This document shows, piece by piece, positions 14,198-25,235 of a DNA stretch of 32,372 nt. Position 1 is the first letter of the stretch. Each line of letters starts with the position of its first letter. The translations under genes were made by a program, and so were the position numbers. Below the pieces are notes generated by a model. It did not search any database, had not been told where the DNA came from, and saw only the letters and a list, made by a program, of their open reading frames with translations. This DNA comes from Candidatus Krumholzibacteriota bacterium (GTDB lineage Bacteria; Krumholzibacteriota; Krumholzibacteriia; Krumholzibacteriales; Krumholzibacteriaceae), in the NCBI GenBank assembly GCA_016926065.1, contig JAFGPI010000106.1:1-32372 (forward strand), given 5' to 3'.

Positions 14198-15508
14198 TCA
14201 ACCCATCATGCGAGCGATATCCTCCCGCGGGTCCCCCATGAGCCGGATTCCGTAATTATCAACCAGCACCCGGAGGATCTCGTCGTTGATCCAGGCCGGT
14301 ATGATAGGTCCCAGGGTAACGCCTTTAATGCCCAGATGGAGGAGGCTCCAAAGGATGGCGACCGCTTTTTGTTCCATCCAGCTGATATTCAGCTCGAGCG
14401 GCAAATCGTTGATTTCCACCTTGAACAGGCCGGCCAGCGCGGTGGCGATCTCGACGGCCACGATGGCATCGTTACATTGGCCCAGATCGATAAGGCGCGG
14501 CACCCCCTCGATATCGCCCAGATCCATGTCGTTGAACCGGAACTTCCCGCAGGCCAAGGTGAGAACCACGGTATCGGGCGGAAGATTTTCCACGAATTCC
14601 CGGTAATAAACGCTCCTTTTCAGCGGCGCGTCGCAACCTCCCACCAGGAAAAACCTTTTTATCTTACCGGCCTGGACCAGCTCCTTTATCTTGCCCGCCA
14701 GGGATAGCACCACCCCGGCGGAGAATCCCGTGGTGAGTTGATAATCCCCGGGTTTATCCGGCAGCTCCGGAAGCGCTGCGGCCTTCTCCATGACCGCGCT
14801 GAAATCATATCCCTCAACATGCTTTACCCCCGGCATGTGCACTGGCCCGCTGGTGAACATGCGGTCCCTATACTCCTCCCGGGGAGGCATGATACAGTTG
14901 GAAGTGACCAGGATGGCCACCGGATATTCGGCGAATAATTTTTTCTGATCGAACCACGCCTTCCCCAGATTTCCGGCCAAATGAGCGTACTTGCGCAGGC
15001 CCGGGTATCCGTGGGCGGGTAACATCTCGGAATGGGTATAGACATTTATACCGCTTCCCTCTGTTTGCTTGAGAAGCTCTTCCAGCGCCTTGAGGCTATG
15101 TCCGGTGATAAGGATACCGGGGCCCTTGACGGTGCCCGTTTCAACCTTTACAGGCTGGGGTTCCCCGTATGCCTCTATATGCGCCCGCTTGAGGAGCTTC
15201 ATGGTACGGATATTCATCGCCCCCGCCTCCAGGGCCATGCGGACGAACTCTTCCCCGTCGAAATTCACGTTCGTGAGGGTGGAATAATACGTCCGGGCGA
15301 GAAATTCATTGACCACATCATCGGTGTATCCCAGCTCGCGAGCGTGATAGAGGTAGGCCGATATCCCCTTGGAGGCGAATAGCAGGTTATCCTGCAGGCG
15401 CGCCACGGTAGCTTCCTTGCCGCATACGCCCTTTACGGTGCATCCGGTTCCCTGAGCGGTTTGTGAACACTGGTAACAAAACATTCCTGGTTTTTTATCT
15501 TCAGACAT
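14198..15508 (-). CDS. hcp: Hybrid-cluster protein / hydroxylamine reductase, short class III form
   Basis: 436 residues, about 110 shorter than E. coli or Desulfovibrio Hcp, matching the class that lacks one helical domain. The N-terminal cluster motif is [19 protein letters not shown] (Cx2C-x8-Cx5C, the 4Fe-4S type). All hybrid-cluster ligands of the Desulfovibrio protein can be found: [45 protein letters not shown] and SWMEQKAV. Hcp acts in the cytoplasm on NO and hydroxylamine (NO reductase activity in E. coli, hydroxylamine reductase in vitro). AGGGGG precedes the ATG. It is the first gene of the minus-strand block and faces an Rrf2 regulator across a 1-kb control region, the usual layout for nitrosative-stress genes. 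Confidence 0.95.
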
Positions 15509-17095: not shown

Positions 17096-17185
17096 GATTC
17101 TCAGGGACCGGGACTCATCAGTCCGGATTCCCAGGGGCCGGGACTGATCAGCCCAGATTCTCAGGGACCGAGGTTCATCAAGCGC
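17096..17185 (-). repeat. Three 30-bp tandem repeats at the 3' end of a rubrerythrin-like gene
   Basis: Units 17096-17125, 17126-17155 and 17156-17185 each begin GATTCyCAGGGrCCGrG and contain CATCA or GATCA. The last unit holds the stop codon and final residues (LMNLGP) of the minus-strand gene; the other two are copies lying beyond the stop. Exact 30-base periodicity by my count. A partial relative, GATTCCCAGGG, appears at 17802 on the other side of the gene. Confidence 0.7.
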
Positions 17186-17667
17186 TCACCGGTGAGAAAT
17201 TCATCCGAGTTGAGATCCTGTCCCATCTCGATCTGTTTGTGCTCCGCCTCCAGGATGGCCAGATGGCTGCGTTCCATGCTCGCCATGTAGTGCAGGAGCG
17301 ACTTGCTGTTCGGATCATTCGTCTTGCCGGCCAGATCGGCATAGAACTTCTCCGATTTCTTCTCCGCCTGCATGGCCACCTCGAAAAGCTCCTTCAAGGA
17401 AGCTTCCCGTTCGAGCACTTCACTTATGCTGGGAACGAGCGATTTCGGGGGAGGCTGAAGCTCCACTTCGGGAAATTTCTTGTGGTAAGCCTCGGTAAGT
17501 ATCTTCTGATGATGCTTTTCCTGGGAAATCAGGAAATCAAACTTATCCGCCAGGTCCGGATTACTGGATGTCTCCTTCATCCGTTCATAGAGCCTGACGG
17601 CCTCAATCTCCGCCTTGATGGCGATACTCAACACTTCCAGGGTGGTATAATCCCGCTCCTTTTTCAT
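17161..17667 (-). CDS. Rubrerythrin-like ferritin-fold diiron protein
   Basis: 168 residues from ATG 17667, with AAGGA 7 bases upstream; a tandem ATG at 17670 is also possible and the track start at 17727 has no ribosome site. Two Glu/ExxH halves are visible: EIEAVRLYE with QEKHH, and AEKKSEKFY with MERSHLAILEAEH. No rubredoxin domain. It is a cytoplasmic diiron protein of the rubrerythrin-like group, with peroxide reduction or iron oxidation as likely chemistry. It stands alone on the minus strand between the Rrf2 gene (convergent) and a small membrane-protein gene. Its 3' end is part of a three-copy 30-bp repeat. Specific function unknown. Confidence 0.85.
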   Translation of the reverse strand: MKKERDYTTLEVLSIAIKAEIEAVRLYERMKETSSNPDLADKFDFLISQEKHHQKILTEAYHKKFPEVELQPPPKSLVPSISEVLEREASLKELFEVAMQAEKKSEKFYADLAGKTNDPNSKSLLHYMASMERSHLAILEAEHKQIEMGQDLNSDEFLTGERLMNLGP

Positions 17668-17727
17668 CATCGATTCCTTTCCGCTGGGCACAAACGGTGC
17701 CGGCCAGCCGAATATTTCTTCACGCAA

Positions 17728-18139: not shown

Positions 18140-18968
18140 TCAGTCCTCCGCCCCGGCCATGCGCTCCACCTTTACCGGGGAAGCATACACGAAAGGCCAT
18201 TCCCCGTCTTCCGTCAGTATGTAGGGAATGTACTCGCTGCCGCACCGCGTACCGGTTGAGGGATCGACCTGGACCCAGCCTTCGGCGGCGATATATACCT
18301 CACCCCACACGTGTCCGCTACGGTCAAAAATCCAGCCTCCTACCTGCCTCGCGGGCAGACCGGCCGCCCGGCAAAAGGTGACGAAGCAATCGGCGAAATC
18401 CCAACAGCGGCCATAGCCCTGTTCCAGCACCCGCGTGACGCCATATCGTGATCCGACCACTTCACCGCCATACTGAAGGTTCTTCCCGGGCACCAACCAA
18501 TCGAGAATCGCCTCCATTTTCCCCTCCGCATCGACCGCGGCCCCGGCAATTTCTCCGACCAACTTCCTTATCTCGGGCTTGTCGCTCGGCCAGTGCGGTC
18601 CGGGTAAACTCGATCACCGTCGTTCCATCGATCATCACATATCGAGGATTGTTCCCGTGCATCGCGAGGATATTCCGGTAAACGGCCTCCGCGCCTGAAG
18701 CGGTTTCGCATTCGACGAGATTGATCTGTACCGTCTTCCCCTCAAAGGAAAAGACCGAATTGGATATGGCTTGGGCATTACCTCCCAATTTCCGGGCGAT
18801 CGCGTCCCTTTGGAATGGGGATACCTCGACCCTCTTTTCCAATTTCCAGCCCCGGGGTAGCGGGATTTTCCCCTGGATAATTTCCTGATACCGGGGTGCC
18901 TCCACGGCGGGAGATGCGGCCGACAGCAGCAGGATCAATATCAGGTGCACGCCCAATTTTTTTATCAT
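18140..18968 (-). pseudogene. Secreted transglutaminase-like protein, broken by a frameshift
   Basis: Two overlapping ORFs make one protein. The 5' ORF (from 18968) has a signal peptide (KKLGVHLILILLLSAASPAVEA) and ends out of family at ERQARDKEVGRRN. The second frame continues naturally as KPEIRKLVGEIAGAAVDAEG and holds a transglutaminase-like core with the Cys-His-Asp triad: YGRCWDFADCF, SGHVWGEVYI and VQVDPSTG. The shift falls at about 18578-18590 (GCGACAAGCCC); loss of one base, for example from GCGGGACAAG, would explain it. The joined product would be about 275 residues, exported. Such domains act as peptidases or amide-bond enzymes in the periplasm. Either a real recent mutation or an assembly error. 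Confidence 0.75.
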
Positions 18969-19060
18969 TTTTCCTCCGCCATTCCCGAATCGAGTATAAT
19001 TTTATTGCTTTCAGCCATAATTTAAACAGAGGAGGCCGGTTCCCTCCAAGAAAAAAAGAG

Positions 19061-19099
19061 TTGACATCCCGTTTATTAATAGTAATAATTATTATTATC
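19061..19099 (+). promoter_or_regulatory. Promoter with overlapping Fur/PerR-like operator
   Basis: TTGACA (19061-19066) with a 16-17 base spacer to TAATAAT (19083-19089). The -10 lies inside the perfect palindrome TAATAATTATTA (19083-19094), itself in an AT-only run typical of Fur and PerR boxes. The next gene is a Fur-family regulator, so autoregulation is expected. Confidence 0.6.
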
Positions 19100-19114
19100 A
19101 ATAGGGAGAGCGTC

Positions 19115-19516
19115 ATGGAAAGAGCGAATTGGAGCAGAAGGACAAGGCAGCGGGAGATGATCCTGCGGGAGATCAAGAAACTAAGGACACATCCCTCCGC
19201 CGCCGATATTTACGAAATCGTCCGTAAAAAACTTCCCCGTATCAGCCTGGGTACGGTTTACCGAAACCTGGAGGATCTTTCCCGGGCGGGAATAATCAGG
19301 AAAATCAGGGACGGGGGAACCCGCGCCCGCTACGACGGTACCGCGGCGGGACACTACCACCTGCACTGCCAGCGGTGCGGCCGCTTGGTGGATTTGGAAA
19401 AAGATCCCTCCCCGCCCGTCCGGGTAGGCCCCGGGAAAATGGATGGATGGGAGATCACCGGTTACCGCCTGGAATTCACGGGGATCTGCCCTTCCTGCTT
19501 GAAGAAGAAGGTTTGA
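19115..19516 (+). CDS. Fur-superfamily regulator, PerR-like with full regulatory metal site
   Basis: 133 residues from ATG 19115 with GGGAGAG upstream; the longer track ORF starts in the opposite-strand gene. Winged helix (HPSAADIYEIV, SLGTVYRNLEDLSRAGII) and dimer domain with structural zinc pairs CQRC and CPSC. All five PerR regulatory ligands are present by eye alignment: His in HPSAADIY, Asp in RYDG, two His in GHYHLH and Asp in GRLVDLE. It heads a plus-strand unit with ferritin and two rubrerythrin-like genes, so it probably represses iron-storage and peroxide-defence genes until peroxide or iron changes. An Irr/Fur-type iron role is possible. Confidence 0.9.
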   Translation: MERANWSRRTRQREMILREIKKLRTHPSAADIYEIVRKKLPRISLGTVYRNLEDLSRAGIIRKIRDGGTRARYDGTAAGHYHLHCQRCGRLVDLEKDPSPPVRVGPGKMDGWEITGYRLEFTGICPSCLKKKV

Positions 19517-19603
19517 GAAAGGATCCCCGCTTTTTAGTTGAGCTGTGAGGATAAAAAGTGTAGATTCAAAATCCCGCTGAATCATCAACGAAAGGATTTA
19601 GTG

Positions 19604-20125
19604 ATGTTGAACAAGAAAATCGAAAAGGCCCTGAACGACCAGGTAGCGGCCGAATTTTATTCCGCCTATCTTTATCTGGCCATGGCCGCTTTCCTGGAAA
19701 GCCTCGATCTGCCGGGATTCGCCAACTGGATGCGGGTCCAGTACCAGGAGGAAACCGCGCACGGTCAGATCCTCTATAATTATATATTCGAGCGGGACGG
19801 GATGGTGATCTTACAGGCGATCGACGCCCCACCGGAGGAGTGGAAATCGGTGCAGGACGTGTTCGACGAGGTTTACAAGCACGAACAGAAAGTCACCGCC
19901 CTGATCAATAACCTGGTCGATCTGGCCCTCTCCGAAAAGGATCACGCCACCTATAATTTCCTGCAGTGGTTCGTCAAGGAACAGGTGGAAGAGGAGGCCA
20001 GTGCCAAGGCGGTCCAGCAGCAGCTCCGCCTCCTGGGTGATTCCAAGAGCGGGCTGTTTATGGTGGACCGGGAGATGGGCGCCCGGATTTTCAACACTCC
20101 CGCTCCTCTCCTGGGGCAGGACTGA
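19604..20125 (+). CDS. ftnA: Ferritin (FtnA-type iron storage protein)
   Basis: 173 residues from ATG 19604 with AAAGGA 7 bases upstream (the track's earlier start lacks one). Typical non-haem bacterial ferritin: MLNKKIEKALNDQV at the start, ferroxidase-site Glu in AAEFYSAYLYLAM, QEETAHGQILYNYIFERDG with the Glu-x-x-His pair, and FLQWFVKEQVEEE. Twenty-four such subunits form a cytoplasmic shell that oxidises Fe2+ and stores Fe3+. It follows the PerR/Fur-like gene by 87 bases and precedes two rubrerythrin-like genes. No haem-binding Met of bacterioferritin at the expected site was noted. Confidence 0.95.
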   Translation: MLNKKIEKALNDQVAAEFYSAYLYLAMAAFLESLDLPGFANWMRVQYQEETAHGQILYNYIFERDGMVILQAIDAPPEEWKSVQDVFDEVYKHEQKVTALINNLVDLALSEKDHATYNFLQWFVKEQVEEEASAKAVQQQLRLLGDSKSGLFMVDREMGARIFNTPAPLLGQD

Positions 20126-20240
20126 GATAGCATGTTACCCGGGCGCGATCGGCATGGATTGAACCTACAGGACAGGCAACCGGGCAATAATTAGCGTGGG
20201 GGAGCGACTGCTCCGGGATAATAACGGCAGGGAGGCGATC

Positions 20241-20753
20241 ATGACCCTGGAAGAAGCGATTAAAACCGCCCTCGAATATGAAGGCAAGGTCCACCGTGTA
20301 TATCTGGAGGCCCTCAACGCCGATATTGGCGAGGAGGGCAAACGGGTGTTCAGGGCGCTCTGCGACGAGGAGAAGAGGCATCTCGAATACCTGCGCTCCC
20401 GTCTGGATGAATGGCAAAACCGGGGAGAGCTGAGGGAGGAATTCCTGGAAACCGCGATTCCGGGCCGGCGGGCGATCGACGAAGGCGTTTCCAGGCTGCG
20501 GAAGAGGCTCTCCGGCGGCCGGAAAACGAAGCACGATATCGATCTGGAAATGCTCCAGAGAGCGCTCCAGGTGGAGGAGGAGACCAGCAATTTCTACCAG
20601 GAGATGGTTCGCACCCTGGATGAGACGGGACGGCTGCTGTTTCAGCGTTTCGTGGAAATAGAGGAAGGCCACAAGGCCATAGTGCAGGCGGAAATAGATT
20701 ACCTCCGGGGCACCGGCTTCTGGTTTGACATCCAGGAATTCAAAATGGGATAG
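20241..20753 (+). CDS. Rubrerythrin-like ferritin-fold diiron protein
   Basis: 170 residues from ATG 20241, where GGGAGG lies 5 bases upstream; the track start at 20196 has no ribosome site. Two half-sites for a diiron centre: EYEGKVHRVY with DEEKRHLEYL, and EETSNFYQEM with IEEGHKAIV. No rubredoxin domain. The middle (about 75-110) is a basic linker, RRAIDEGVSRLRKRLSGGRK, longer than in its neighbours. It lies between ferritin and another family member in one transcription unit. Peroxide or iron chemistry is likely; details unknown. Confidence 0.87.
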   Translation: MTLEEAIKTALEYEGKVHRVYLEALNADIGEEGKRVFRALCDEEKRHLEYLRSRLDEWQNRGELREEFLETAIPGRRAIDEGVSRLRKRLSGGRKTKHDIDLEMLQRALQVEEETSNFYQEMVRTLDETGRLLFQRFVEIEEGHKAIVQAEIDYLRGTGFWFDIQEFKMG

Positions 20754-20787
20754 CTTGAGCTTTCGCGAACGGATAAAGGAGAACGGT

Positions 20788-21240
20788 ATGACCGAATTTA
20801 AATCAGTGGATGACATTCTCGATTTTGCCATCAACAACGAACAGAAGGCGATCGATTTCTACACCGGACTGGCGGACCGGATGGAGATCCCCGCGGTGAG
20901 CAAGCTCTTGCTGGAATTTGCCGGGGAGGAGAAGAAACATAAGGCGAAATTGCAGGAGATAAAAGCCGGCAAAACCTTGCTGGCGGTCAAGGACCGCATC
21001 ATGGATCTCAAGATCGGCGATTACCTGGTGGACGTGGAAGGTACGCCCGATATGGATTACCAGAACGCACTCATCCTGGCCATGAAAAGAGAGAAGGCCG
21101 CTTTCCGCATGTACAGCAACCTGGCCGCCCGCGTCGACGGCGATCTGAGGGAGATTTTTCTGGGCCTGGCCCAGGAAGAGGCCCGGCACAAGGTCCGTTT
21201 CGAGATAGAGTATGACGAGTACGTTTTAAAGGATAATTGA
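20788..21240 (+). CDS. Rubrerythrin-like ferritin-fold diiron protein
   Basis: 150 residues from ATG 20788, AAAGGAG 6 bases upstream; the track start lies inside the preceding gene. The two diiron half-sites are NEQKAIDFY with GEEKKHKAKL, and REKAAFRMY with QEEARHKVRFEIEYDEYV. It lacks a rubredoxin domain. It resembles the gene at 363-863 in size and motif spacing (FAGEEKKH against FLAGEEKKH), so the two may be paralogues controlled by different regulators. Last gene of the fur-like/ferritin unit, followed by a strong terminator. Confidence 0.88.
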   Translation: MTEFKSVDDILDFAINNEQKAIDFYTGLADRMEIPAVSKLLLEFAGEEKKHKAKLQEIKAGKTLLAVKDRIMDLKIGDYLVDVEGTPDMDYQNALILAMKREKAAFRMYSNLAARVDGDLREIFLGLAQEEARHKVRFEIEYDEYVLKDN

Positions 21241-22642: not shown

Positions 22643-24001
22643 ATGAGAAGAATAATCATACCAGTGGTAGTACTCACCGTGATGCTGAACCTGGCCCTCA
22701 CTCCGGGATCCGGGGAGAAGGGGGAAAGTGCCCCCTTCGGGGCTTTCCGGGAGAACGATTTCGAAAGACCCCTCACCTGCCGCCAGTGCCACATCGATAT
22801 CTACGAACAGTGGCGGCAGGCTATGATGTCGCAATCCTACGTGCATCATTGGGACGAGATCGAGTATTTCGACCTGGCCCTGGAACACGCCAAAAAGGAT
22901 TCCTCCCTGGAGGGCGCCATATCCGGCTGCAACGGCTGTCACACCCCCCTGATGTGGCTATCCGGGGTGAAGACCCCTCCGCGGCCGGAAGAGGGATCGC
23001 GGGCGAACGAGGGCGTTTCCTGCGATATCTGTCACACCATCACCGCACGGACCGGCGAACCTTCGGTCAACTTCAACTACGTCAACTCCCCGGGAAAGAC
23101 CAAGTACGCAAACCGCCGGGGAGTCAAAAGCCCCTACCACGAGACCCAGTACCTCGAATTCGTAAGGACGGCCGAATACTGCGGTATCTGCCACAACGAG
23201 ATGAATCCCTTCGGGATCTGGGTCAAGTCCACCCAGCTCGAGTGGGCGGCGGGACCCTACGCCAAGGAGGGAGTGCAATGCCACATCTGCCATATGCCCC
23301 GGGCCCCGGGCAGAAACGCCAACACCGCCGAGGAGGAGCACCCGGACGTGGCCCAGCATCTTTTCCACGGCGCCCACGATCCGGGAAAGGTGGGAGGAGC
23401 GATAGAGATGCGGATGCACCCGGTGGAAAGGGAGTTCGAACCGGGGGACCAGGTGGTAATCAAGGTACAGCTTTTCAACGGCAAATGCGGTCACAAGGTC
23501 CCCTCCGGATCGGCCGAGGAGAGGCAGCTCTGGCTGAGATTGACGGCCACCGACGCGGCGGGACGGGAGTATCACCTTCCGGTGGACCGCAAGGGATTCG
23601 AGGGCGAGGAGCAGACCATAACCAGCAATGAACCGGCCTACCAGGATATGGGATTCATGCTCGGCCGGGCCGGCTTCGCCGGCATCCCCCGGGACGCCCT
23701 GCCCGAAGGCGATCGGATATTCTGCCTCCCCTACTTCGACCGGGAGGGGCGCAGGACCATCGCCCAGTGGAATACGGCCTCTCTGGGCACCGATTACCGG
23801 ATCGGACCCCGGGAGACCAAGATAGAGACATACACCTGGACCATACCGGACGACATGGAGCCGGGCCGGGTAACCGTCAGGGGGACCCTTAAATACCGGC
23901 GGCTGGTGAAATCGGTGGCCGAGTTTCTGAAGGTTCCGGAGGACGAGACGGAGATAATCCCGGTCAATAACGCGGAGACCTGGTTCGAAGTCGTGGACTG
24001 A
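22643..24001 (+). CDS. Pentaheme c-type cytochrome (cytochrome c554-like)
   Basis: 452 residues from ATG 22643, chosen because it starts directly with a signal peptide (MRRIIIPVVVLTVMLNLAL); the track GTG at 22595 would put 16 basic residues before it. Five haem motifs lie in the first half: CRQCH (about 46), CNGCH (96), CDICH (127), CGICH (180), CHICH (213). The second half (about 220-452) has no Cys-haem motif and looks beta-rich (FEPGDQVVIKVQLFNG, KIETYTWTIPDDM), like the accessory domain of cytochrome c554-type proteins. It is exported and carries electrons in the periplasm or on the cell surface. The Cyc2-like gene begins 28 bases later, so the pair probably forms one electron path. Confidence 0.88.
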   Translation: MRRIIIPVVVLTVMLNLALTPGSGEKGESAPFGAFRENDFERPLTCRQCHIDIYEQWRQAMMSQSYVHHWDEIEYFDLALEHAKKDSSLEGAISGCNGCHTPLMWLSGVKTPPRPEEGSRANEGVSCDICHTITARTGEPSVNFNYVNSPGKTKYANRRGVKSPYHETQYLEFVRTAEYCGICHNEMNPFGIWVKSTQLEWAAGPYAKEGVQCHICHMPRAPGRNANTAEEEHPDVAQHLFHGAHDPGKVGGAIEMRMHPVEREFEPGDQVVIKVQLFNGKCGHKVPSGSAEERQLWLRLTATDAAGREYHLPVDRKGFEGEEQTITSNEPAYQDMGFMLGRAGFAGIPRDALPEGDRIFCLPYFDREGRRTIAQWNTASLGTDYRIGPRETKIETYTWTIPDDMEPGRVTVRGTLKYRRLVKSVAEFLKVPEDETEIIPVNNAETWFEVVD

Positions 24002-24029
24002 ATGCTTTTAGCGAAAAGGGAGGTTACAG

Positions 24030-25235
24030 ATGCCGTATCTCCAGGGCAGATGCATAAGGAATCCCGTTTGGGCCTTGCTTATTTTAGCTTTTATCTTAAC
24101 GCTTTGGCCTTCAGCGGCGGGGGCCATCCCCGCCTTCGCGCGTAAATACAAGTTTTCCTGCACAACCTGCCACGCGCCCGTTCCGAGGTTGAAACCTTTC
24201 GGGGAGGATTTCGCGGGCAACGCCTTCCAGCTGGACGAAAAGGAAGAGCCCAAAAGATATTTTCACGAGACCGGTGACGAGCATCTCACGCTGATGCGGG
24301 ATCTCCCCCTGGCGGTGAGATTCGACGCCTTCGTGGGACACACCCATTTCTCCGGCGGGAACATGAGCATGACCGATCTTAAGGTGCCCTACGGGCTTAA
24401 AATGATGTCGGGCGGTAACCTGTCGCGGCATATCGGGTACTACTTCTATTTCTATATGTCCGAGCAGGGAGAAGTGGCAGGCATCGAGGACGCCTATATC
24501 CATTTCAACGATCTGGGGGGAAAGGATCTCGACGTGATGGTGGGTCAGTTCCAGGTGTCGGACCCCCTGTTCAAGAGGGAGCTGCGCCTTACCTACCAGG
24601 ATTACCTGATATACAAGCTCAGGGTGGGCGAGTCCCCCACCAACCTGGCCTACGACCGGGGGATCATGATCTTATACGGCGCCCCCACCGGCACCGACGT
24701 GGTGCTGGAGATCGTGAACGGAAACGGTAAGGACGAGGAGGGAGAAACCGGATTCGACAACGAGCAGTGGAAGAACGTCTTTCTGCGCCTATCCCACTCC
24801 TGCGGGCCGGTCAGGGTCGGTGGATTCGGCTATTTATGCAACTCGAAAAAACTGGGCGCCGGTAACCTGGAAAACCAGCACTACTACTGGGGAGTGGACG
24901 GGACGGTCGATTTCGGAAAAACAGTTCAGATCAACGGGCAGTACCTGGAGCGCCGCGACGACAATCCCTTCTGGGAAACGGGCCCGGTGGAAGAATACAG
25001 GGTCAAGGGCGGTCTGGCCGAACTGGTATGGGCCCCCCGGGGAGTGGACGGAAGATCGTACGTGACCCTGCTGGCGAATATCATAGATTCGGATAAGGGG
25101 CTCTACGACTGCCGGGCCGTTACCCTGAGCTACAGCTACCTGTTGAGGCGTAACATGAGGCTGCTGGCGGAAGTCACCTACGAAGACGAATGGGAGCAAT
25201 ACGATTTCATCACCGGACTGGTGTCGGCCTTTTAG
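24030..25235 (+). CDS. Cyc2-like fused monohaem cytochrome - outer-membrane beta-barrel
   Basis: 401 residues. Signal peptide (WALLILAFILTLWPSAAGA), then AIPAFARKYKFSCTTCH with one haem at about residue 44, then a long region of alternating amphipathic strands (YYFYFYMSEQG, AYIHFNDL, VMVGQFQVSD, LRLLAEVTYEDEW) ending in Phe, the outer-membrane barrel signature. The haem region matches the Cyc2 pattern AxPxFARQTGxxCxxCH except that QTG is KYK. Cyc2 is the fused porin-cytochrome of Fe(II)-oxidising bacteria; related families serve other electron exchange at the outer membrane. GGGAGG lies 6 bases before the ATG and the pentahaem gene directly precedes it. Direction of electron flow is unknown. 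Confidence 0.78.
   Translation: MPYLQGRCIRNPVWALLILAFILTLWPSAAGAIPAFARKYKFSCTTCHAPVPRLKPFGEDFAGNAFQLDEKEEPKRYFHETGDEHLTLMRDLPLAVRFDAFVGHTHFSGGNMSMTDLKVPYGLKMMSGGNLSRHIGYYFYFYMSEQGEVAGIEDAYIHFNDLGGKDLDVMVGQFQVSDPLFKRELRLTYQDYLIYKLRVGESPTNLAYDRGIMILYGAPTGTDVVLEIVNGNGKDEEGETGFDNEQWKNVFLRLSHSCGPVRVGGFGYLCNSKKLGAGNLENQHYYWGVDGTVDFGKTVQINGQYLERRDDNPFWETGPVEEYRVKGGLAELVWAPRGVDGRSYVTLLANIIDSDKGLYDCRAVTLSYSYLLRRNMRLLAEVTYEDEWEQYDFITGLVSAF

Follow-up and report, generated by a model that had tools for sequence, protein, structure and literature searches.

A conserved gene pair encoding a pentahaem cytochrome and a Cyc2-like cytochrome-porin in a Krumholzibacteriota genome

Two adjacent genes, here called pen and cyc, encode an exported pentahaem c-type cytochrome (Pen) and a Cyc2-like fused cytochrome-porin (Cyc), and form a real, widespread and conserved two-gene module. 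The window, which is the whole stretch of DNA analyzed (32,372 nucleotides), is a complete contig of a metagenome-assembled genome (94% complete, 0.8% contaminated) that has Krumholzibacteriota as its closest named relatives. Fused cytochrome-porins are a kind already known; the pairing with a nearly obligate pentahaem partner is new. The pair may act as a two-part conduit dedicated to carrying electrons across the outer membrane to or from dissolved redox partners, a reading to which a probability of about 0.5 is given. Cyc would be a porin of 16 strands with a single haem in its N-terminal segment, which probably plugs the pore at its periplasmic mouth. From outside, a dissolved redox partner would enter the pore and exchange an electron with this haem, and Pen, a soluble periplasmic protein with five putative bis-histidine haems, would dock on the plug and move electrons between plug and periplasm. 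The conduit would more likely discharge electrons to dissolved acceptors, or work both ways, than feed oxygen respiration, because the organism appears to be an anaerobe in which no oxygen reductase was detected. Candidate acceptors are Fe(III) chelates and humic or other shuttles.

The gene pair and its conservation

Both genes were found on the plus strand, side by side, as an earlier note on this DNA had described them: one for an exported five-haem protein, the other for a one-haem protein (Table 1). Between the last sense codon of pen and the start codon of cyc lie 31 bases, and cyc is preceded by GGGAGG, which resembles a ribosome-binding site. Among the non-overlapping open reading frames of the window, only these two encode CXXCH proteins. 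Pen is an exported protein with a hydrophobic N-terminal helix and without a lipobox cysteine before haem 1; it is not regarded as a lipoprotein, because no cysteine stands ahead of the first haem. The CX3CH variants of this first motif read CGTSCH and similar (e.g., in loci L095, L099, L103 and L106). Cyc has a single CXXCH, a hydrophobic N-terminal segment and phenylalanine as its last residue; C44, C47 and H48 are invariant across 80 sequences.

Table 1. Positions of the two genes and of their parts in the window
Feature	Position	Strand	Length or residues	Remark
pen, pentahaem c-type cytochrome gene	22643..24001 including stop (sense 22643-23998)	+	452 aa	
pen haem motif 1, CRQCH	22778..22792	+	C46-H50	CX3CH in 27/66 relatives
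pen haem motif 2, CNGCH	22928..22942	+	C96-H100	invariant, 67 sequences
pen haem motif 3, CDICH	23021..23035	+	C127-H131	invariant, 67 sequences
pen haem motif 4, CGICH	23180..23194	+	C180-H184	invariant, 67 sequences
pen haem motif 5, CHICH	23279..23293	+	C213-H217	invariant, 67 sequences
cyc, Cyc2-like fused cytochrome-porin gene	24030..25235 including stop (sense 24030-25232)	+	401 aa	
cyc haem segment AIPAFARKYKFSCTTCH	24123..24173	+	residues 32-48	Cyc2 motif and single haem site
cyc predicted 16-strand beta barrel	24312..25229	+	residues 95-400	AlphaFold2 and Foldseek PDB matches
cyc loop between strands 5 and 6	24555..24650	+	residues 176-207	15/32 near-invariant, most of any loop

A public genome scan with Cyc yielded 268 relatives, the best 80 of which were kept as named loci. 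In all 77 of these that could be tested, pen lies directly upstream of cyc on the same strand, the other three having fewer than 200 bases of upstream DNA; the earlier question whether the pentahaem gene always precedes the porin gene is answered affirmatively for every locus with enough upstream DNA. In two of the 77 loci pen is split into two pieces in two frames (L082, 8705-9695; L101, 940-2093), which are assembly errors or broken genes. The named loci span about a dozen phyla: Krumholzibacteriota, Latescibacterota, Calditrichota, KSB1, Zixiibacteriota, Ignavibacteriota, Bacteroidota, Acidobacteriota (including Aminicenantes), Gemmatimonadota, Eisenbacteria, Glassbacteria, Neomarinimicrobiota and one deltaproteobacterium. 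Among 58 related genomes, pen is present in 33 and a match to Cyc in 34, most of the matches being orthologues and those in G012, G016 and G028 divergent only. This number, together with the 268 relatives of the public scan, argues that the pair is not a chance arrangement. Both genes occur in 31 of the 58 relatives, cyc alone in one (at a contig end), pen alone in two and neither in 24 (Fisher p = 6e-13, with relatedness not corrected for). The evolutionary distances of Pen and Cyc are correlated (r = 0.72, a value as high being reached in 0 of 1000 permutations), to which shared ancestry contributes. Besides pen and cyc, no other gene family recurs in more than 13 of the surveyed loci. Homologues of pen without an adjoining haem porin were seen in four places (L236, 6924-8285; L237, 6519-7862; L238, 5944-7305; L239, 134-1423), the contig of L239 ending 133 bases beyond the homologue, and three of these homologues group on a branch of their own within the pen tree. 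Pen can therefore have another role, which counts against the conduit.

Iron-storage and Fur/PerR-like genes had been placed 1.4 kb from the pair in the earlier note. The gene at this distance upstream belongs instead to the rubrerythrin family (20785-21240); the ferritin gene (19601-20125) lies 2.5 kb from the start of pen, and the Fur-family gene (18965-19516) lies 3.1 kb from it. A homologue of the ferritin open reading frame lies near the pair in only three surveyed loci, so that this neighbor is local and not conserved, and a search of the window turned up no canonical Fur box; on these two grounds a link to iron homeostasis by neighborhood was dropped, and the neighborhood is not supported as a clue to function. 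Genes of oxygen and nitrogen stress type are abundant in the window, at 363-863, 14198-15508, 17161-17727 and 19601-21240; the set comprises several rubrerythrin-like open reading frames, a hybrid-cluster-protein-like open reading frame, the ferritin and the Fur-family gene.

Sequence features and predicted structures

The published Cyc2 motif is AXPXFAR[Q/K][T/Y] (PMC8406198), and Cyc reads AIPAFARKY ahead of its haem site. KYK had been taken for a departure from the Cyc2 signature, a claim that the published motif overturns: KY at the QT position fits it, and what differs here is only the change of the following G to K, at a position outside the motif. KYK was accordingly discarded as diagnostic of a non-Cyc2 protein. 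The only CXXCH of Cyc is N-terminal (CTTCH, residues 44-48); PXL stands four residues past it, with P52 and L54 invariant, and the 401 residues and 16 predicted strands compare with the at least 365 residues and 16-strand porin barrel of Cyc2. The window protein thus agrees with Cyc2 in motif, PXL, length and predicted barrel. The full strict motif is retained in 53 of 79 relatives of Cyc.

An AlphaFold2 model of Cyc built on 80 sequences (mean pLDDT 81.5) has 16 strands, and its best matches among solved structures (Foldseek against the PDB) are the 16-strand general porins Omp32, OmpT, PorB and OmpF, and also OprP, the fold reported for Cyc2 by Keffer and colleagues (PMC8406198). Of the 16-strand barrel with a plugged haem that the earlier note had envisaged, the barrel is thus borne out as a prediction, a model lacking one having been named there as the contrary outcome; the plug is not, since residues 29-62, among them the haem site, are modeled with low confidence, the haem segment at pLDDT < 50, and this counts against the conduit. 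The barrel is unusually conserved. Its loop between strands 5 and 6, in which 15 of 32 positions are at least 90% identical, would by strand order correspond to the L3 constriction loop of general porins. The mature protein has no conserved histidine or methionine beyond the CXXCH, which likewise counts against the conduit. Direct searches with Cyc against the PDB and Pfam/NCBIfam returned nothing useful, and Pfam scans of its relatives gave scattered weak porin-type matches only.

The AlphaFold2 model of Pen (pLDDT 88.9) has its best solved fold match in the pentahaem cytochrome c552 of Thermochromatium tepidum (PDB 5ze8; E = 8.5e-19), which is also the top profile match of Pen; with five haems and this predicted fold, Pen conforms to PHC and c552-like proteins. 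Exactly five histidines outside the haem motifs are invariant across 67 sequences (H68, H166, H239, H245 and H284), which, judged from the alignment, fits five bis-histidine haems. A study of cable bacteria placed ExtKL and Gsu2801 together in a pentahaem family structurally homologous to c552 (PMC11976967), and in Geobacter the Pen relative ExtKL is encoded together with the porin ExtI (PMC5877670). All 67 members of the Pen family match the ExtKL model NF040886 weakly, the window protein scoring 46.2 bits, below the equivalog cut-off of 250. A weak local alignment with GHxxPxG as its anchor places Ser290 of Pen opposite the selenocysteine of its relative MccSep (position 325), and this serine is at least 90% conserved in the family. 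Membership of Pen in ExtKL was rejected on the score and the serine at the selenocysteine site. Assignment to NrfA-type enzymes was rejected as well, there being no CXXCK and five invariant distal histidine candidates that would fill all haems. Because of the five histidines and the serine, Pen is more likely an electron carrier than a reductase.

A degenerate DNA pattern for PxFAR-x5-CxxCH detected Cyc2-motif genes in 85 of 396 genomes from the phylum of an Ignavibacterium relative, of the types QTG, KYGT, KYHT, KYQT and others. Among the motif genes read, pen stands upstream only of the type FAR[KRQ]Y..SC..CH.P.P.LK..G and close variants. The pen-linked proteins were compared in a tree with QTG-type proteins and other relatives found here, and form one clade on a long branch (SH-aLRT 100) with the QTG-type proteins elsewhere. 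The suggestion of a distinct Cyc2-related family is upheld to this extent, and the placement that had been named as speaking against it, a grouping with proteins whose known function is unrelated, did not appear in the tree. Within the clade, loss of pen is clear in a single row, L196. The deep order of the tree is not to be trusted, because the search was short and the porin columns align poorly; the clade itself is well supported. A search of plasmids for reference Cyc2 returned two distant QTG-type records only. In the Bacteroidota sample, two or three different types of Cyc2-motif porin occur together in several genomes (QTG, KYHT, and KYGT or KYQT), and no pen was seen among those read (within L162 to L191 and the 396-genome sample). 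The motif PTFARNVPELCGKCHR, with the same haem-motif pattern as Cyc2, occurs in a separate family of proteins about 650 aa long (L200, 2595 to 4601; also L206, L229, L199 and L202). Its members differ in length and ends, lack pen, and would be false positives in motif-only searches for Cyc2.

Host physiology and possible functions

The genome looks anaerobic, as had been supposed: neither a haem-copper oxidase (COX1) nor a bd oxidase was detected in the 94% that is assembled, and the unassembled 6% could hold oxidases. In the order to which the window belongs, the pair occurs in 16 of 25 genomes and COX1 in 0 of 25, and across the 58 relatives the two are unrelated (p = 0.60); the pair is therefore not tied to haem-copper oxygen respiration. 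The genome contains a cytochrome c assembly gene, next to an open reading frame that, from its sequence, is read as ResB-like. Neither a NapC-type quinol dehydrogenase nor a paired-CXXCH cytochrome was found in the genome, and this counts against the conduit. Cytochrome_C554 is matched at two loci in the genome; of the two, L245 (6342-7577), on a contig other than the window, is a four-haem open reading frame whose N-terminal part is metallophosphatase-like.

The points counted for a conduit are the gene order, the co-presence and the correlated distances of the two genes, the porin model of Cyc, the c552 fold match and five histidines of Pen, the ExtKL-ExtI pairing, the lack of a detected COX1 or bd oxidase, and the cytochrome c assembly gene. 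The main rival is Fe(II) oxidation of the Cyc2 type, in which Fe2+ would enter the pore, the haem would take the electron, and Pen would carry it inward to an anaerobic respiration, e.g. nitrate reduction. Such a function agrees with the published motif and predicted architecture found in the window protein, with surveys that assigned most Cyc2 homologues from these phyla to cluster 3 and suggested iron oxidation coupled to nitrate (PMC9769843; PMC8478452), and with four genomes, name-matched to those studies, whose sole Cyc2-motif gene is the one linked to pen. However, no oxygen reductase was found in the genome, the relatives show no association with COX1 (p = 0.60), the function of cluster 3 is the most uncertain according to its authors (PMC8406198), and the paired clade lies at a large tree distance from the QTG-type proteins; Fe(II) oxidation is considered unlikely here. 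Pen might also be a periplasmic reductase, e.g. of an oxyanion, for which Cyc would serve as the porin that admits the substrate, its haem handing over electrons. In Geobacter, selenite reduction has been linked to ExtKL and ExtI (PMC5877670), and Pen has weak matches to nitrite reductases, but the candidate invariant distal histidines of all five haems would leave no open site, Ser290 occupies the selenocysteine position of MccSep in the weak local alignment, and all haem motifs are CXXCH or CX3CH with no CXXCK active-site motif, so that catalysis by Pen appears improbable. Still more improbable is an assimilatory iron porin, in which Fe(III) complexes would be reduced inside the pore with electrons from Pen, and the cell would take up Fe(II); it would suit the Fur-family gene, the ferritin and the two rubrerythrin-family genes upstream in the window, but not the restriction of the ferritin neighbor to three surveyed loci, the window without a canonical Fur box, or the lack of conservation among the other neighbors of the pair.

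Cyc2 is taken as a genetic marker of iron oxidation by microbes, through which metagenome surveys have credited this process to Calditrichota, Krumholzibacteriota, KSB1, Zixibacteria and others. Cluster 3 of Cyc2 was called in the same phyla and Fe(II) oxidation proposed (PMC9769843; PMC8478452). Four of the genomes with the pair, those of L087 and L104 (both Dive96) and of L118 and L123 (both DeMMO), bear names that match these two studies, and no Cyc2-motif gene other than the pen-linked one was found in any of them, which suggests that the surveys flagged exactly this gene. The pen-linked porins have probably been lumped under cluster 3 so far and counted as iron-oxidation genes. It is tentatively proposed that the paired clade consists of functionally separate trans-outer-membrane conduits and not of iron oxidases, in which a one-haem pore connected to its own pentahaem carrier would let anaerobic heterotrophs of about a dozen phyla dump or trade electrons with dissolved partners. 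In that case part of the iron-oxidation potential assigned to cluster 3 in these phyla would be mis-assigned; a dedicated partner and genomes devoid of oxygen reductases, if true, mean that the survey claims need to be re-tested. Pen is a candidate for the taker (or giver) of the pore-haem electron, and since this pentahaem partner is fixed, the fate of that electron can be tested with two proteins.

Comparison with known systems

In MtrAB, MtoAB, PioAB and the Pcc systems of Geobacter, a decahaem or octahaem protein threads a large haem-free porin. The pair resembles these systems in combining a porin with a multihaem cytochrome, and there electrons pass over the outer membrane; it falls outside their definition, as Cyc is a small 16-strand porin with one haem and Pen has five haems. 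Cytochrome c552 of T. tepidum is the best match to the predicted fold of Pen, although the identity is only about 20%, and to our knowledge it has no porin partner. The likeness to ExtKL and PHC of Geobacter and cable bacteria (PMC11976967; PMC5877670; NF040886) consists in five haems, a C-terminal beta domain and an adjoining porin; Pen differs in its score far below the cut-off and in the serine at the weakly aligned selenocysteine position, and its partner porin carries a haem of its own.

The closest counterparts of Cyc are the Cyc2 fused cytochrome-porins (Keffer 2021, PMC8406198), divided into clusters 1-3 (McAllister 2020, PMC7029218). Shared features are one N-terminal CXXCH, AXPXFAR[Q/K][T/Y] with PXL, a length above 365 aa and a predicted 16-strand barrel with OprP among the similar porins. 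A fixed pentahaem partner of Cyc2 is not mentioned in the accessible papers, a search to which preprints and many subscription papers did not belong. Unlike Cyc2, cyc is preceded by a pentahaem gene wherever this could be tested, with one loss seen, and its products form a clade separate from the QTG-type and other relatives found here; their barrel and strand 5-6 loop are unusually conserved, the full motif persists in only part of the relatives, and they are found in genomes without detected oxygen reductases.
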